Assembly: GCA_947465495.1 (NCBI GenBank)
Contig: CANIAS010000013.1
Span: forward strand, 1-55,294
Direction of reading: 5' to 3'
Source: Candidatus Pollutiaquabacter sp.
GTDB lineage: Bacteria; Bacteroidota; Bacteroidia; AKYH767-A; 2013-40CM-41-45
DNA: 55,294 nt
Below, one piece after another: positions 19,590 to 37,660 of the stretch (its first letter is position 1; the number at the start of each line of letters is the position of its first letter). The notes beneath the pieces were generated by a model. The model ran no database searches. It saw nothing but the letters and a program-made list of their open reading frames with translations, and was not told where the DNA came from. The position numbers were made by a program, and so were the translations under genes.

Positions 19590-22007
19590 ATGAAAAAAAT
19601 TTTCCAGCAATTTCTAGTTTCCGTATCCCTGCTTTTAGGTTGGAGTGCATCCGCACAAACCCCTGCCTTGCGCGGAATATACATCAATGACTTTGACGTT
19701 ATTTTCAGAAACAGTGTAAAGGAGGACAGTCTACTGACCTATTTACGCGACAGTTCGTACAATTACATGGCATTATACGACTTACAATCAATCGATTTCA
19801 ACAATTCCACACAAGTTAGCGCACTGGCATCCTTTATTCGAAGGGCCCACGACCAGTACGGCGTTCAATACGTTGGAGCCGTAGGAGAAAGTTTGAGTCT
19901 CTTTGCCAATAAGATCGTTCCGTATAACAACAACCATCCTAGTGCCAGTGAGAAATTCAACGTCTTTAATGTAGAATTTGAGTTTTGGACAACCTCTTCC
20001 GTTTCTCCAGGCGGTAATTACTGCGTGCAGTACCTACAGCAAGCCAACTGCAGTTGCGACACTGCAGGTGCTTTTTTGTATTACAAAAGTCTGATTCGTG
20101 GCGTCGATTCCTTAGCCAACCTTCAAGGAGCTATCAGTGAAACGTATGTAGGATGGTTCAACCAGGGTCAAGGGCAATACATTGCTAATACCATGGATAG
20201 AATCCTGTTGCATGCTTACCGCATCGATGAAACATCGGTATATGGATATAGCAAGACCCGACTTGGATACCTTGGCTCGACCAGCCGCGTGGTTCAAGTT
20301 GCTCCCATTTTCTCTTCCGAACCGATTTTCATGGGCCCATGGCTGAGCAATCATGCGCAGATCCAGGCCTATAATCGTTATCTGGCCGATTTCAATGCGG
20401 ATAATTCCGCCTGGAAAAGCAAAATTAGTCTACAGGGTTATCAGTGGTTTACCTACACCATGATGCCAAGAAACACTACACCATCAACGGGTGGAAGCGT
20501 GTATGTCCCTGCTGTGACGGCTGGGAGTGCAACCTCATTTTGTGCAGGTGGAAGTGTAACACTTACAGCGGAAAGTGGTGACAGTTATAGTTGGTCAAAT
20601 GGCGCCAATTCCAATTCCATTACCGTTACTGCATCAGGAACTTATTCGTGCCAGGTAACATCATCAGGAAATACCGGAACCAGCGTACCAATTACCGTCA
20701 CAGTATACTCTCTCCCCACTGCAAGTATCAGTGCCGGAACAGTTACCAACGCAGGTGTAACTTTGAGTACTACAGCAACCGCGGGTAGCGGCACAGTAAG
20801 TTCTTACCAGTGGACGAAAAACAACGCGAACATCAGCGGAGCTACTTCGGCTTCCCTCTTAGCAACGAGTGATGGAAATTACCAAGTGAGTGTTACTAAT
20901 TCACGTGGTTGTTCCATGGTTTCAACTGCCTATAGCGTAGTCATCCCTACCGCCTTTGTTCCAACCATCACAGCATCCGGCTCAGCCTCCTTTTGTGAAG
21001 GAGGAAGTGTGACACTAACCGCACAGTCAGGCAGCACCTATCTTTGGTCGAATGGTGCGACCACACGTAGTATTACGGTGACTGCTTCAGGAACCTACTC
21101 TTGCACACTGACTCAATCCGGTCAAACTGGAACGTCTGAACCAATCATTGTAACCAGCTGGTCAAATCCAACTGCCACCGTAGTTATTGGAAGTTCGAAT
21201 CCAGGCAGTGTAGCCTTAACAGCGAACGCCACTGCGGGCAGCGGATCCATCAGCAATTTTCAATGGATGATGAATTCAACGGACTTGACAAGTGAAACGA
21301 ACGCTTCCATGTTAGCCACTTTGGATGGTAATTATCAGGTAAAGGTTACCAATAGCAACGGATGTATGGTTACATCATCTGCCGCTTCAGTAACCATTCC
21401 TACCACTACTACTTCTTGCACATTATCGGTACCAACCAACACCACAACCACGATGATTAACTCCAGCAGTGCCAATTTAAATTGGAGTACTATACAAAGT
21501 TGCGACTCCTTGTTGTTCCGGATACGTGTAGAAGGCTCCAATCAGACCAGCTACATCAGTATTCCTTATAATGGTCAAACAAGTTTCACCGTTACTGATC
21601 TGCTTCCTGCCACAGCCTACTCCTGGAAAATGCAGACGAAATGTGGAACAACCACCAGTAATTTATCCACTCGCATTTACTTTAATACAACCATGCAAGA
21701 CACCACCGGCATCACACAAGTTGATGATCAACTGAACAACGAGCAAATCCTTTTAGATAATATCATCACCTACCCTAACCCGGTAAACGATCACTTAAGT
21801 ATAAAAATCATTGGGGAAAGTTCGGCTACAGCCATTTTGCAATTAGCAGATGTCACTGGCAGAATTCTGCAACAAAGTACCGTTGAGTTAACCAAAGGCG
21901 AAAACAATTTCAACATGGAATTACAGGGACTTGCAACCGGTCTATACTTTGTTTCAGCCATCCATTCGAATGAAATCAAAACCACCCGCATCATGCACAT
22001 TGAATGA
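19590..22007 (+). CDS. Secreted protein: TIM-barrel-like domain, Ig-like repeats, FN3-like module, type A sorting domain
   Basis: I start at the ATG 19590 (MKKIFQQFLVSVSLLLG), which gives a good signal peptide ending near SAQ23. Residues ~28-290 alternate beta strands and helices like a TIM barrel (RGIYIND, YMALYDLQ, VQYVGAVGE, FNVEFEFW, SETYVGWF, DRILLHAYR, PIFSSEP, LQGYQWF). Candidate acidic residues are E100, E129, E131, E184 and E244. Then come two copies of a two-module repeat (FCAGGSVTLTA/YSWSNG..., then a second, longer module), an FN3-like domain, and a tail with ITYPNPVNDHLSI and GLYFVSAI, a type A sorting domain. It may be a surface glycan-acting enzyme; this is inference. A paralogue follows. 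Confidence 0.8.
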   Translation: MKKIFQQFLVSVSLLLGWSASAQTPALRGIYINDFDVIFRNSVKEDSLLTYLRDSSYNYMALYDLQSIDFNNSTQVSALASFIRRAHDQYGVQYVGAVGESLSLFANKIVPYNNNHPSASEKFNVFNVEFEFWTTSSVSPGGNYCVQYLQQANCSCDTAGAFLYYKSLIRGVDSLANLQGAISETYVGWFNQGQGQYIANTMDRILLHAYRIDETSVYGYSKTRLGYLGSTSRVVQVAPIFSSEPIFMGPWLSNHAQIQAYNRYLADFNADNSAWKSKISLQGYQWFTYTMMPRNTTPSTGGSVYVPAVTAGSATSFCAGGSVTLTAESGDSYSWSNGANSNSITVTASGTYSCQVTSSGNTGTSVPITVTVYSLPTASISAGTVTNAGVTLSTTATAGSGTVSSYQWTKNNANISGATSASLLATSDGNYQVSVTNSRGCSMVSTAYSVVIPTAFVPTITASGSASFCEGGSVTLTAQSGSTYLWSNGATTRSITVTASGTYSCTLTQSGQTGTSEPIIVTSWSNPTATVVIGSSNPGSVALTANATAGSGSISNFQWMMNSTDLTSETNASMLATLDGNYQVKVTNSNGCMVTSSAASVTIPTTTTSCTLSVPTNTTTTMINSSSANLNWSTIQSCDSLLFRIRVEGSNQTSYISIPYNGQTSFTVTDLLPATAYSWKMQTKCGTTTSNLSTRIYFNTTMQDTTGITQVDDQLNNEQILLDNIITYPNPVNDHLSIKIIGESSATAILQLADVTGRILQQSTVELTKGENNFNMELQGLATGLYFVSAIHSNEIKTTRIMHIE
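20540..21420 (+). repeat. Duplicated pair of Ig-like modules in the first barrel protein
   Basis: Two similar units of about 140-145 codons lie in tandem. Each contains a Cys-bearing module (SFCxGGSVTLTA then WSNGA, ITVTASGTYSC) followed by a second module (TATAGSG.. then LLATSDGNYQV or MLATLDGNYQV). They arose by internal duplication and have diverged. Confidence 0.75.
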
Positions 22008-22032
22008 TCCAATTTTCAAACCGAATTTCATT

Positions 22033-22062
22033 GAGGCTGCCACCAAAAGGCAGCCTCTCCAT
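22033..22062 (+). terminator. Rho-independent terminator after the first barrel protein
   Basis: A perfect 9-bp stem (GAGGCTGCC / GGCAGCCTC) with a 7-base loop is followed by TCCATTTTTATGG. It begins 26 bases after the stop codon at 22007. Confidence 0.8.
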
Positions 22063-22130
22063 TTTTATGGACCGTGTGATTCAATTTGAAAAATTGCCTC
22101 ATGATTCTTTCCATAACTGAGAGAATATAC

Positions 22131-22189
22131 TGCCCAACGAGTGGGGCCTACGTTGACAATTTTCGGTCCCTAAAAAAGTCGATTGGGCA
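22131..22189. other. Nested inverted-repeat element, possible structured RNA
   Basis: TGCCCAA (22131-22137) pairs with TTGGGCA (22183-22189). Inside it GGGGCC (22143-22148) pairs with GGTCCC (22165-22170) with one G-U. The two stems nest, so one strand could fold as a two-tier hairpin of 59 nt. No U-run follows on either side. Strand and function are unknown. Confidence 0.3.
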
Positions 22190-22460
22190 ACTAGACCTCT
22201 CGAATTCTAAGGGAATAGCGTTTTTTTGGCTAAAAGTTATTAACACGTGGTATATGGGATAATTCATATTTCTTCCTAAATATATCCTCTCATGACGTTT
22301 TAAGGGGTATGTTTTTTCCCAAAAAAGGAAGATTCATGTTCGCTCCAACAAGATTTTAATCCGATGTTAAGAACACATTACCCAAAAGTTTCCATAATCT
22401 ACAAGATGGCTTAAATTCGCAAGCAATTGAAATTTTTACTTATCACAAATTGTAGAAATC

Positions 22461-24725
22461 ATGAAACACACATTTCGGATTTTTATTTTAGGTTGCTTGA
22501 TGCTATGGACAGGATTTAGTTCTGCCCAGACGAATTCGGTACGTGGCTTCTATCTGCCTAATACTCCTACCTGGATCGGCAATGCAACCACCGAGACAGC
22601 TATTTTAAATTATGCATCCGGCAATGCCTATAATTACATCACCCTTTATGGACTTGGTTCATTTGACTGGTCGAGTACGACCAAGAAGAACCAGTTAGCA
22701 GACTTTATCCGACGCGCGAAAACAAATTACGGCATTACCCAAATTGGCGCAGCCGGTGAAGTTTACTCCTTTTTCTCCAATTACATCATTCCATTCAATA
22801 ACGCTCGAAGCAGTGCCAATGAAAAAATAGATGTGTTGAATTACGAGTTCGAATGGTGGGTCAGCTCAAGTGTTACTGGACTTTATTGCAGCAAATACCT
22901 CATTCCTAGCGGGTGTGCCTGTGACACAATTGGGGCTTGGAATTACTCATGGCCACAATTCAAAATGATTGACTCTCTGGCTGCTGCAAACGGACTGACC
23001 TCAGAGTATTATTTTGGATGGCCTTCATCCGGTCGCATGCAAACCATCTCCTCCAGGGCGGACCGCATTCTCCTTCATGCTTACCGTACCAGTGATGCCG
23101 ATATTTATCAATACAGTCGTAGCCGATTAATAGATGCCGCTTCCAACAATCAAAGCATCAAGATACTTCCTATCTTTTCGGCAGAACCTAGCTTTATGGG
23201 GACGTGGTTGAACTCTAACCCTATTACTAAGCCTTATCAAACATACGCTACAGCTTTTACCAACGAAACAGGGACGTTTAAACAGCACATCAACCTTCAG
23301 GGGTATCAATGGTTTAATTATGATTACTTACCTCGTACAACAACTGCTGTGGCTGCAATTACTGCAAGCGGGCCAACCACCTTTTGCTCTGGGGGAAGTG
23401 TGACGTTGACGGCTAACACTGGAACATCCTACTTGTGGAGTCCCGGAAATCAAACCACCCAATCAATTACAGTTTCTGCTTCAGGTTCCTACACAGTAAG
23501 GGTCACAAATTCAGCGGGAGCGAGTGCTATTTCTTCGCCCGTTATCGTGAGTACCACTTCAACCATCACTGCTCCAACGATCAGTGCAAGTGGCCCTGTG
23601 TCTTTCTGTCCAGGAGGATCAGTACTGCTTACCTCGAGCACGGCTTCCTCCTATCGTTGGTCAAACGGTGCTACAACTCAATCTATCACTGTAACAGCTT
23701 CGGGCAACTATAACGTGACCATTACATCGGGAAGCTGTTCAGCAACATCCACCAATACCACCGTGACAGTAACATCGACTCCTCCTATTCCGACCGTCAC
23801 AGCAAGTGGATCATTGTCCATCTGTCCTGGAAGTAGTGTGAAATTATCCTCTAGTCAAGCGGTGAGTTACTTATGGTCCAATGGAGCAACTACCCGGGAA
23901 ATAATGGCCGGAACAGCAGGAACCTATTGGGTAAAGGCATACGGCGGTCCAAATTGCTTTAGTCAGTCGCAAAACCAGGTTATAACAACTCTCACCGCAC
24001 CGACCAAACCAACCATCAGTGCTTCAAGTTCAACTTCGTTAACCTCCTCAAATTCCACTGTTAGTCTGACGTCAACTTCAGCCAGTAGTTATCTTTGGAG
24101 CACAGGTGCAACTACACGAACCATTTCTGTAAATACCCAGGGAAGTTACCGAGTCACAGTTTCTAACTCCAGCGGATGTACTGCTACGTCCGAAGCTACT
24201 TTGGTTAGTGCTAACGGCTGCACACCGCCTGCTGCACCAACTATTTCACTAAGTACAACTAGTAATGTTATCACTAGCGGAACTAGCGTGACGCTTACAG
24301 CTTCGACTGCCAATGGCTACCTATGGTCCAATGGAGCAACAACACGAACTATCACAGTTAATGCCGCAGGCACTTATACTGTCCGGGGCTACAGTGGTGG
24401 TTCTTGTTATTCTACCTCTTTACCTATGACCATTTATGTAGTTAGTGCCCGTTTGCAATCTTCAGAAGCTGTCGGCTTCTCCATGTCCCTGTATCCGAAT
24501 CCTGCTACTAGCGACTTACAGGTCAACTACCAATCTAGCTTATCTGAAAAAGCTAATTTCCGCATAGCGGATATTTCAGGTCGTATTGTTCTTGAGCATG
24601 ACTGGGAATCCATTGTTGGATTCAACAGTGTTGATGTAGACGTTGCTGCACTTCCTCGCGGAATTTATGTGGCCACTATCGTAACTGGAGAGGGTCAACA
24701 GACTTCCCGGATTATCTTACAATAG
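22461..24725 (+). CDS. Secreted paralogue: TIM-barrel-like domain, five Ig-like repeats, type A sorting domain
   Basis: This 754-residue protein shares its N-terminal ~290 residues with the preceding gene: signal peptide to about SAQ23, then RGFYLPN, YITLYGLG, GAAGEVYSFF, NYEFEWW, SEYYFGW, DRILLHAYR, FSAEPSFMG, LQGYQWFNY. Conserved acidic positions include E100, E129, E131, E182 and E242. From about residue 297, five Ig-like repeats of ~70-75 residues follow, each with a YLWS(N/T)GATT-type core. The tail (LYPNPATSDLQV, GRIVLEHDW, GIYVATIV) is a type A sorting domain for export by the type IX system. It is probably displayed on the cell surface. No family name is assigned. Confidence 0.82.
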   Translation: MKHTFRIFILGCLMLWTGFSSAQTNSVRGFYLPNTPTWIGNATTETAILNYASGNAYNYITLYGLGSFDWSSTTKKNQLADFIRRAKTNYGITQIGAAGEVYSFFSNYIIPFNNARSSANEKIDVLNYEFEWWVSSSVTGLYCSKYLIPSGCACDTIGAWNYSWPQFKMIDSLAAANGLTSEYYFGWPSSGRMQTISSRADRILLHAYRTSDADIYQYSRSRLIDAASNNQSIKILPIFSAEPSFMGTWLNSNPITKPYQTYATAFTNETGTFKQHINLQGYQWFNYDYLPRTTTAVAAITASGPTTFCSGGSVTLTANTGTSYLWSPGNQTTQSITVSASGSYTVRVTNSAGASAISSPVIVSTTSTITAPTISASGPVSFCPGGSVLLTSSTASSYRWSNGATTQSITVTASGNYNVTITSGSCSATSTNTTVTVTSTPPIPTVTASGSLSICPGSSVKLSSSQAVSYLWSNGATTREIMAGTAGTYWVKAYGGPNCFSQSQNQVITTLTAPTKPTISASSSTSLTSSNSTVSLTSTSASSYLWSTGATTRTISVNTQGSYRVTVSNSSGCTATSEATLVSANGCTPPAAPTISLSTTSNVITSGTSVTLTASTANGYLWSNGATTRTITVNAAGTYTVRGYSGGSCYSTSLPMTIYVVSARLQSSEAVGFSMSLYPNPATSDLQVNYQSSLSEKANFRIADISGRIVLEHDWESIVGFNSVDVDVAALPRGIYVATIVTGEGQQTSRIILQ
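23350..24440 (+). repeat. Five tandem Ig-like repeats
   Basis: At protein level five modules of about 70-75 residues share a start such as ITASGP or ISASG, a GGSVTLTA-like strand, a central YLWSNGATTR core and an ITVxAxGxY strand. Copies 1-3 and 5 carry Cys, which may form disulfides. This is internal duplication, not a DNA-level satellite. Confidence 0.8.
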
Positions 24726-36169: not shown

Positions 36170-36673
36170 TTAATTCTCAATATCGGTCACCTTTGCAAAC
36201 TTTACCGTCTGCTTATCACCCGCTGCAACAACCACCAACATGTAAATTCCAAGATCCAGATTATCTACTGGAATTTCTTCAGAAATAATTTGGCCGGCAT
36301 AGGTCGCATAAAAATTGCGCTGGTACTTAAACCGACCGAAGTCATCGTAAATATAGAGCGAAGCTGGCCCGGGTTGCTTCATGTACAAATTGAAGGTTGC
36401 CGGAAAATAGCTGACGGCAGTAGGATACATCTCCATGAAGAATCCTTCGCAGATGGTAGAATAGGTCCAACTCCCAGAAAACAATCCTCCCCAAAAATAA
36501 GCCGCACACTCATTGCGATAGGTTTTATTATCGCAACCGCATACCGGACTAAAATCTGTCCCGCAAGGCTGATAATCATTCGGGACACGTGTTGTATCTA
36601 CACAATAAAAAAACGACTGACTTTTAGCAGACAGCGCAGATAACACGATAGCAAACACTATGACAAGACGCAT
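36170..36673 (-). CDS. Exported Kazal-domain protein with C-terminal type A-like sorting region
   Basis: This small protein (167 residues) has a signal peptide (LVIVFAIVLSALSAKSQS). A Kazal-type fold follows: CVDTTRVPNDYQPCGTDF (split here), then SPVCGCDNKTYRNECAA, six Cys in total to about residue 75. The C-terminal half has MYPTAVSYFPATFNLY and a final LGIYMLVVVAAGDKQTVKF, which resembles a type IX type A tail. It is probably a secreted protease inhibitor. A TATCTTTA box lies 8 bases before its ATG. It is transcribed with the AcpH-like gene downstream. Confidence 0.7.
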   Translation of the reverse strand: MRLVIVFAIVLSALSAKSQSFFYCVDTTRVPNDYQPCGTDFSPVCGCDNKTYRNECAAYFWGGLFSGSWTYSTICEGFFMEMYPTAVSYFPATFNLYMKQPGPASLYIYDDFGRFKYQRNFYATYAGQIISEEIPVDNLDLGIYMLVVVAAGDKQTVKFAKVTDIEN

Positions 36674-36736: not shown

Positions 36737-37516
36737 TTAATCCAATGTTTCGTCCTTTGACTCTGGCATAGAAACGTTACCCACCACATCAATCATCCCG
36801 TACCCTTGGTTGGTATAAAGACCAATACCGCAGTCCCATACGAATTTCTGTACCTGCGGATGTGCGTGCAAAGTGAATGGTAACAGGTAGCCAAAAATCG
36901 GTAGGCTATCGTTGTTCTTATAAATTCGCGCGAACTTCTTGTGCGTATTCAGGATCTTATCGATGTAACCTGGATCAGGTACGATTTCAAACTCAGCAAA
37001 TTTCTGCATCTCCTCTTGCGTGTATCCGGCCTGTTCCATGCGGTCCATGATGGCATTGTAAAATGCATCGGAGAACTCCTGTGAACGAGGATCCAACGCG
37101 TCTGGAATATTGCCACCTTCATCGGATTCAAAAGGCGGCTGACAAACCATAGGGGAAATACAAACGTATTTCATTTCCGTCTTGAATTCAGGGTCTGGAA
37201 TAATCTCATAGGCCTTTGGGACCAATGTCAATTTAGCAAAACTGACAAGTCGCTTTTCAAAAAGTGTTTCGACCCATTGCTTTGCGAATTCATCGTGCGC
37301 GCCTGATATTACCAGCGTAACCTTGGAAGACAAGAAACGGATTTGTCCGTTCATGACCTTCGAGGTTCCTTTGAGCGATGAGAAATTGTAAAAAGAAGAA
37401 GACGTCGGCAGATCACGGATGATCTCATCCATCAGTGCCGAAATAATCTTTTGGTGGTGCAACGGAACAGTACCAGTACTACCGTGAACTTTTAAAAAGG
37501 AAATTTTAATACGCAT
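36737..37516 (-). CDS. cas6: Cas6-type CRISPR RNA endoribonuclease, solitary
   Basis: This 259-residue protein begins MRIKISFLK and has PLHHQKIISALM, where His20 or His21 is a candidate catalytic residue. YVCISPMVCQPP is at about residues 117-128. GYLLPFTLHAHPQVQKF is followed by the diagnostic glycine-rich loop DCGIGLYTNQGYGMIDV near 228-244. This order is that of Cas6, which cuts pre-crRNA within repeats and keeps the 3' handle bound. No other cas gene and no CRISPR array is seen in the window. It follows the terminator of the polysaccharide operon with its own leader. Regulator or relic roles are possible. Confidence 0.85.
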   Translation of the reverse strand: MRIKISFLKVHGSTGTVPLHHQKIISALMDEIIRDLPTSSSFYNFSSLKGTSKVMNGQIRFLSSKVTLVISGAHDEFAKQWVETLFEKRLVSFAKLTLVPKAYEIIPDPEFKTEMKYVCISPMVCQPPFESDEGGNIPDALDPRSQEFSDAFYNAIMDRMEQAGYTQEEMQKFAEFEIVPDPGYIDKILNTHKKFARIYKNNDSLPIFGYLLPFTLHAHPQVQKFVWDCGIGLYTNQGYGMIDVVGNVSMPESKDETLD

Positions 37517-37535
37517 TGTAGGTGAAGAAATTAAA

Positions 37536-37597
37536 GGTGTCTTTCATCTAAAAACGAGTCTGATTAAAATAAAAACAGACTGATTTCGAACTAAAAC
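37536..37597 (-). repeat. Three contiguous ~21-base imperfect direct units in the cas6 leader
   Basis: On the minus strand units begin at 37597, 37576 and 37555. All three start GTTTT(T)A and run 20-21 bases; the first two also share an AATCAG[TA]CT core. They are contiguous and sit 20-81 bases upstream of the cas6 ATG. Conservation is weak, so this may be chance. Confidence 0.3.
37549..37581 (-). terminator. Hairpin terminator of the polysaccharide operon
   Basis: AGTCTG and CAGACT (37557-37562 and 37576-37581) form a perfect 6-bp stem with a 13-base AT-rich loop, followed on the minus strand by CGTTTTTA. It lies 80 bases after the stop of the sugar transferase and in front of cas6. The stem is short and the loop large, so termination may be leaky. 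Confidence 0.5.
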
Positions 37598-37623
37598 TGG
37601 CTTTTTTATCGCAAAATAGCTCT

Positions 37624-37631
37624 CAAAGTTA
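37624..37631 (-). promoter_or_regulatory. Candidate -7 promoter element (TAACTTTG) for cas6
   Basis: A perfect TAnnTTTG on the minus strand, 108 bases upstream of the cas6 ATG. It would yield a leader of about 100 nt containing the hairpin and the three-unit repeat. A TTG at the ideal -33 spacing is lacking. Confidence 0.4.
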
Positions 37632-37660
37632 CGAAAATTAAAACAACACTTACATCTGTG

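Follow-up and report, generated by a model that had tools for sequence, protein, structure and literature searches.

The solitary cas6-like gene of a Candidatus Pollutiaquabacter genome encodes what we read, with a probability of about 0.6, as a vertically inherited, CRISPR-independent protein that uses the Cas6 fold to bind or chaperone a cellular RNA partner and that is probably not a canonical nuclease. The gene (36737-37516, minus strand, 259 aa) lies in a 55,294-nt contig, hereafter the window, by which we mean the whole stretch of DNA analyzed; its description as a CRISPR-independent Cas6-family gene draws on the open reading frame, profile HMMs, orthologs, a structure model and a tree. 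The distribution of its orthologs is best read as that of a vertically inherited core gene in at least two Bacteroidota orders, and the Cas6-like protein probably now serves some other function that involves RNA.

A Cas6-family protein in a genome without CRISPR partners

The 36737-37516 open reading frame is a genuine member of the Cas6 superfamily (RAMP) by sequence and fold. Its product matches NCBIfam TIGR01877 (cas_cas6; E = 1.5e-18, 68.0 bits against a cut-off of 58.65) and Pfam PF01881 (Cas_Cas6_C; E = 2.6e-18, 67.5 bits against a cut-off of 23), and PADLOC places residues 1-245 nearest to Cas6b (E = 6e-31). The other Pfam Cas6 model, PF10040, had no match in the window's genome. The profiles bear out the family assignment made in the preliminary description, and none assigned the protein to a non-Cas6 family. 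Matches in the PDB to designed PPR proteins were set aside as repeat artefacts of a short helix.

The gene also stands alone, as had been proposed. No other cas genes lie around it in the window, and a repeat scan that recovers the arrays of all five control loci (L033, L034, L087, L088 and L091) found no CRISPR array within the 55 kb; Rfam showed no CRISPR repeat family and no known RNA family anywhere in the window. Gene-family searches of the whole assembly (2.72 Mb in 117 contigs, 97.8% complete) returned no Cas1, no class-1 RAMP (PF03787) and no DevR/Cas7 (PF01905), and the cas6-like protein was the single Cas6 match, with no second copy. A triple TGAAAC-tail array pattern was likewise absent from the genome, the genome-wide search consisting of this one repeat-tail pattern and the gene-family searches rather than a general array finder. 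Nor did these searches find elsewhere in the genome a cas operon from which the gene might have been displaced by rearrangement, a possibility raised at the outset.

The Cas6 fold is retained and the catalytic triad is lost

An AlphaFold (AF2) model of the protein (pLDDT 93.4, pTM 0.88) shows two ferredoxin-like domains in the Cas6 arrangement and aligns with five Cas6-family structures at Z scores of 23.7-25.9 over 214-231 residues; Foldseek matches it to Cas6 structures with an E-value of 4e-16. The best whole-length structural matches are 3qjj (PH0350), 5yi6 and 3ufc (PF0393), all with Z = 25.9, and PfuCas6 (3i4h) follows with Z = 24.7. Comparing the family profile with structures gave E-values of 4e-18 for 3ufc, 8e-15 for 3qjj and 6e-6 for PfuCas6.

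Residues invariant in all 67 orthologs compared are H21, S46, K49, P122, D150, F176, D181, Y184, K193, R197, P213, F214, G230, G232, G238, G240 and D243. Several of these fall in short motifs, all encoded on the minus strand. The PLHHQ motif (residues 18-22; 37451-37465) opens helix 1 and corresponds to 'YNHQ' of PfuCas6; its H21 is invariant and H20 is present in 60 of the 67 sequences. S46 and K49 belong to an FSSLKG motif (residues 45-50; 37367-37384), and D150 to an FSD motif (residues 148-150; 37067-37075) that to our knowledge has not been described for Cas6 nucleases. A KKFARIY motif (residues 193-199; 36920-36940) carries K193 and R197 and is a candidate RNA contact. The C-terminal glycine-rich loop, GIGLYTNQGYG (residues 230-240; 36797-36829), had been recognized from the first and contributes the four invariant glycines.

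The residues that cut RNA in CRISPR-type Cas6 are missing from this framework. PfuCas6 uses Tyr31, His46 and Lys52 (numbered and assigned their roles as in PMC3652601). Profile alignment sets PfuCas6 'VPYNHQYYLQGLIYNAI...YLHEVKGPKLFTYS' opposite 'VPLHHQKIISALMDEII...TSSSFYNFS' of the family, leaving all three residues without a counterpart. Most of the 67 orthologs have K, E, D or G at the position of Tyr31, and the stretch before FSSLKG is shortened and lacks the catalytic His and Lys that CRISPR-type Cas6 carries there. The His/Lys segment, from helix 1 to the F-x-F-S strand, contains scattered histidines in 19/67 orthologs at no conserved position; of the CRISPR-type Cas6 sequences taken from elsewhere in the phylum, 26/28 keep 'LH' at this segment. 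The preliminary description had singled out adjacent histidines near the N-terminus, and H20-H21 are indeed present, but they are not the His of the canonical active site; in the profile alignment the PfuCas6 counterpart of H21 is the His of 'NHQ', which precedes the catalytic residues. The idea that this HH motif houses a relocated catalytic His, as in Cas6e or Cas6f, is weakened by the same alignment, since its second His is the ordinary one of a Cas6 that is catalytic.

PfuCas6 (3I4H, 3PKM), a CRISPR endoribonuclease, thus shares with the present protein the two-domain fold, the P-x-[NH]-H-Q motif and the glycine-rich loop; the present protein lacks its catalytic residues and has neither a repeat array nor a cas operon. 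Similarly, the curated cut-offs of the endoribonuclease Cas6 models TIGR01877 and PF01881 are exceeded, yet the context and the catalytic residues for crRNA processing are absent. Closer parallels are PH0350 (3QJJ) and PF0393 (3UFC), which also lack the LH..GF segment in alignments and have a Cas6 fold without catalytic residues. Both are archaeal proteins from Pyrococcus, whose species have CRISPR systems. The present protein, unlike them, is a core gene product of bacteria that mostly lack class-1 CRISPR, and has its own invariant set of K49, D150, K193 and R197.

That invariant set allows for an alternative in which the protein is still an endoribonuclease, its active site having been rebuilt from H21, K49, D150, K193 and R197 to cut a dedicated cellular RNA. 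We consider this unlikely, though it deserves serious weight. The five residues, together with S46, are unchanged in every ortholog, and Cas6 active sites do move: TtCas6e and PaCas6f carry their catalytic His on helix 1, and SsoCas6 (Sso1437) has no catalytic His and still cuts, slowly, by lysines and arginines only (PMC3652601). SsoCas6 resembles the present protein in lacking the canonical His, but it is dimeric, belongs to an active CRISPR system and uses different basic residues. Against this alternative, H21 is found equally in PfuCas6, where other residues cut, and the top structural relatives include PH0350, described as a Cas6 homolog that has no catalytic activity and binds repeat RNA in single-stranded form.

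Orthologs form a single-copy core gene under strong purifying selection

All 11 genomes of the window's family contain an ortholog, as do 41 of the 42 genomes of its order (33/33 high-quality genomes and 23/23 genera), with one copy each. In a survey of 296 high-quality genomes across the class, strong matches were confined to the window's order and to families f19 and f41, the remainder being weak. Within f19, 128 of 148 genomes have an ortholog with an E-value of 9e-39 or better, and in 17 of the 148 there is a further, weak match (E = 6e-8 to 3e-4), a CRISPR-type Cas6. The order to which f19 belongs, probably Cytophagales, has a match in 178 of 391 genomes (173 of them strong; 13 families), and some of its families lack the gene. 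Bernardetia (Cytophagales) has a full-length ortholog with 38% identity, WP_338790973.1, named 'CRISPR-associated endoribonuclease Cas6' in RefSeq. A sample of the phylum added no strong carriers.

An unrooted phylogeny built from 46 orthologs plus 28 further Cas6 proteins gathers the orthologs into a single clade (support 100/99) apart from the Cas6 proteins of CRISPR operons. Families f19 and f41 are each a single group, and the home order is another (support 99/97). Ka/Ks values of 0.006-0.04 between close ortholog pairs indicate strong purifying selection, and the alignment of the 46 orthologs has 22 invariant positions. Because the distribution is narrow, we favour an origin by domestication of a CRISPR Cas6 over descent from a pre-CRISPR RAMP.

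A mobile origin was considered and rejected: phage and viral collections held no copy, with zero phage matches and zero viral contigs, and just one plasmid, of 602 kb in Bernardetia, carries the gene. This plasmid, in Bernardetia sp. Wsw4-3y2 (ortholog at L121:12001-12813), also bears purQ and rimM, a gene content suggestive of a chromid.

Class-1 CRISPR systems are rare in the order and tend to bring their own Cas6

The protein could in principle serve CRISPR arrays in trans, by processing or protecting the crRNA of remote or orphan arrays or by helping incoming systems. Its membership in the Cas6 HMM families fits such a role, and some carriers do have CRISPR, among them the f19 genomes with a second, CRISPR-type Cas6 and genome G028, which has a type III RAMP system whose RT-Cas1 protein looks Cas6-like by eye in its N-terminal part. 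Across the window's order, however, class-1 effectors are almost absent: of 42 genomes, one has class-1 RAMPs and none has DevR/Cas7, and Cas1 is present in nine; carriers with class-1 systems tend to have an additional Cas6 of their own. Among the Cas1 loci, the one closest to the window's genome, in a congener (G007), is of type II-C (Cas9 with RuvC/HNH, Cas1 and Cas2), a system that should have no need of Cas6. With the tail pattern finding no array in the protein's own genome and the canonical active site missing, service in trans, including the processing of crRNAs from a remote array, which had been one of the initial suggestions, is improbable.

A long-standing position beside ychF

No CRISPR array lies beside any ortholog in a repeat scan of the ortholog loci, and no cas operon is found there; the neighbours are ychF, DUF3276, a T9SS plug protein, a sugar transferase, an ACP phosphodiesterase and similar genes. 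Among the 52 loci examined, 22 have ychF immediately upstream on the same strand, at a distance of roughly 35-280 nt, and this pairing in gene order recurs in nine families (f1, f4, f19, f41, f123, f127, f131, f132 and f135). Pairwise distances for Cas6 and YchF in these loci correlate at 0.88, a value reached in 0 of 2000 permutations. DUF3276 (PF11680) precedes ychF in most loci of the f19 order that retain ychF, and genes for an ABC-F type ATPase and a T9SS plug protein often follow in loci that keep it.

Many lineages have lost the link to ychF, the window's own among them. In the window's genus a polysaccharide operon now stands in the upstream place of ychF, and two genomes of the same family (G004 and G006) keep the ychF-cas6 arrangement; the present neighbourhood of the window is therefore derived and uninformative on function. 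The preliminary description gave the neighbours as a polysaccharide operon and topoisomerase IV/Kazal genes; downstream, an ACP phosphodiesterase gene lies between the Kazal gene and the topoisomerase genes. The Kazal-domain gene itself (36170-36673, minus strand) runs convergently, on the other strand, in nine relatives, the nearest (L055) among them, and so represents a single-gene inversion. Farther off in the window, a 29-nt coding repeat (YLWSNGATTR-like) occurs four times within 21039-24346, as is typical for repetitive surface proteins.

The gap upstream of the cas6-like gene (37517-37660, minus strand) is 144 nt long in the window, where AGTCTG...CAGACT could pair as a short perfect stem; among relatives the gap can be as long as about 280 nt. 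These features could accommodate control of the gene's own messenger by binding or cutting of a leader hairpin. When 54 leaders were folded, however, minimum free energies were near those of shuffled sequences (most z above -1), with no shared hairpin position and so no conserved hairpin among relatives, and we regard leader control, including the cutting of its own leader proposed in the preliminary description, as very improbable. Finally, the missing cas partners might suggest a functionless remnant of a CRISPR system since lost, but this reading is refuted by the gene's conservation as an intact single copy over tens of genera and in nearly all genomes of the order, by the low Ka/Ks values and invariant residues, and by its long-lasting neighbourhood.

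A proposed role in binding cellular RNA

We propose that a member of the Cas6 (RAMP) family parted from CRISPR long ago and would since have been inherited vertically as a core gene, keeping the two-domain fold and the glycine-rich loop while losing the Tyr/His/Lys cutting triad. Most likely, a segment of a particular cellular RNA would lie bound across the Cas6 groove, and the protein would protect, remodel or deliver that RNA, most likely without canonical cleavage. RNA binding is supported by the fold, the glycine-rich loop and the basic invariant residues, and canonical cleavage is made less likely by the missing triad. Triad loss is no proof that cleavage is lost, because a Cas6 without the His can cut slowly, as SsoCas6 does; the authors of that work suggested that Cas6 proteins act as RNA chaperones as much as enzymes (PMC3652601). 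Recruitment to a different RNA, which had been one of the first suggestions, is accordingly the best reading, but the accompanying idea that the protein was recruited to cut hairpins finds no support, the canonical cutting site being gone and the leader showing no conserved hairpin.

As to the target, the old position beside ychF, which encodes a ribosome-binding ATPase, often near the nucleic-acid-binding DUF3276 and ABC-F, tentatively suggests an RNA of translation or ribosome-linked metabolism. It is possible, and we put this forward only tentatively, that Cytophagales-like and related Bacteroidota have domesticated a CRISPR protein family, turning it into a core RNA-binding housekeeping factor that is unconnected with immunity and works in RNA metabolism linked to ribosomes or translation.

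The annotation of this family as Cas6 is already known, and the name is misleading in that it implies crRNA processing. Searches of the open-licence literature found no report of a CRISPR-independent core Cas6 of a whole bacterial lineage, nor of a solitary, orphan, lone or non-catalytic Cas6 or of Cas6 with YchF. For another Cas protein, Cas4, occurrence outside CRISPR loci is described in PMC5704561. If our reading is right, the genomes of these bacteria bear a misleading CRISPR annotation, and surveys overcount wherever they take a lone cas6 for what is left of a CRISPR system. The protein could then prove to be a new bacterial RNA-binding factor, through which a route from immune to housekeeping protein could come to light.

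Other Cas6-like loci

Weak Cas6 matches elsewhere proved to be CRISPR Cas6 where examined, as at L087, where the match precedes a Cas3 operon with a 32-copy array. This locus (L087:9257-10726) contains two back-to-back cas6-like genes before the Cas3 operon, the second of which lacks the LH..GF segment. A divergent Cas6-like protein without that segment and with no array is found in family f50 (L089:6486-10584 and L090:973-5051), where its gene is followed by one for a protein of 1121-1129 aa with two-component-propeller and SpoIIE phosphatase domains. The f50 protein perhaps represents a second, separate CRISPR-free Cas6 lineage.
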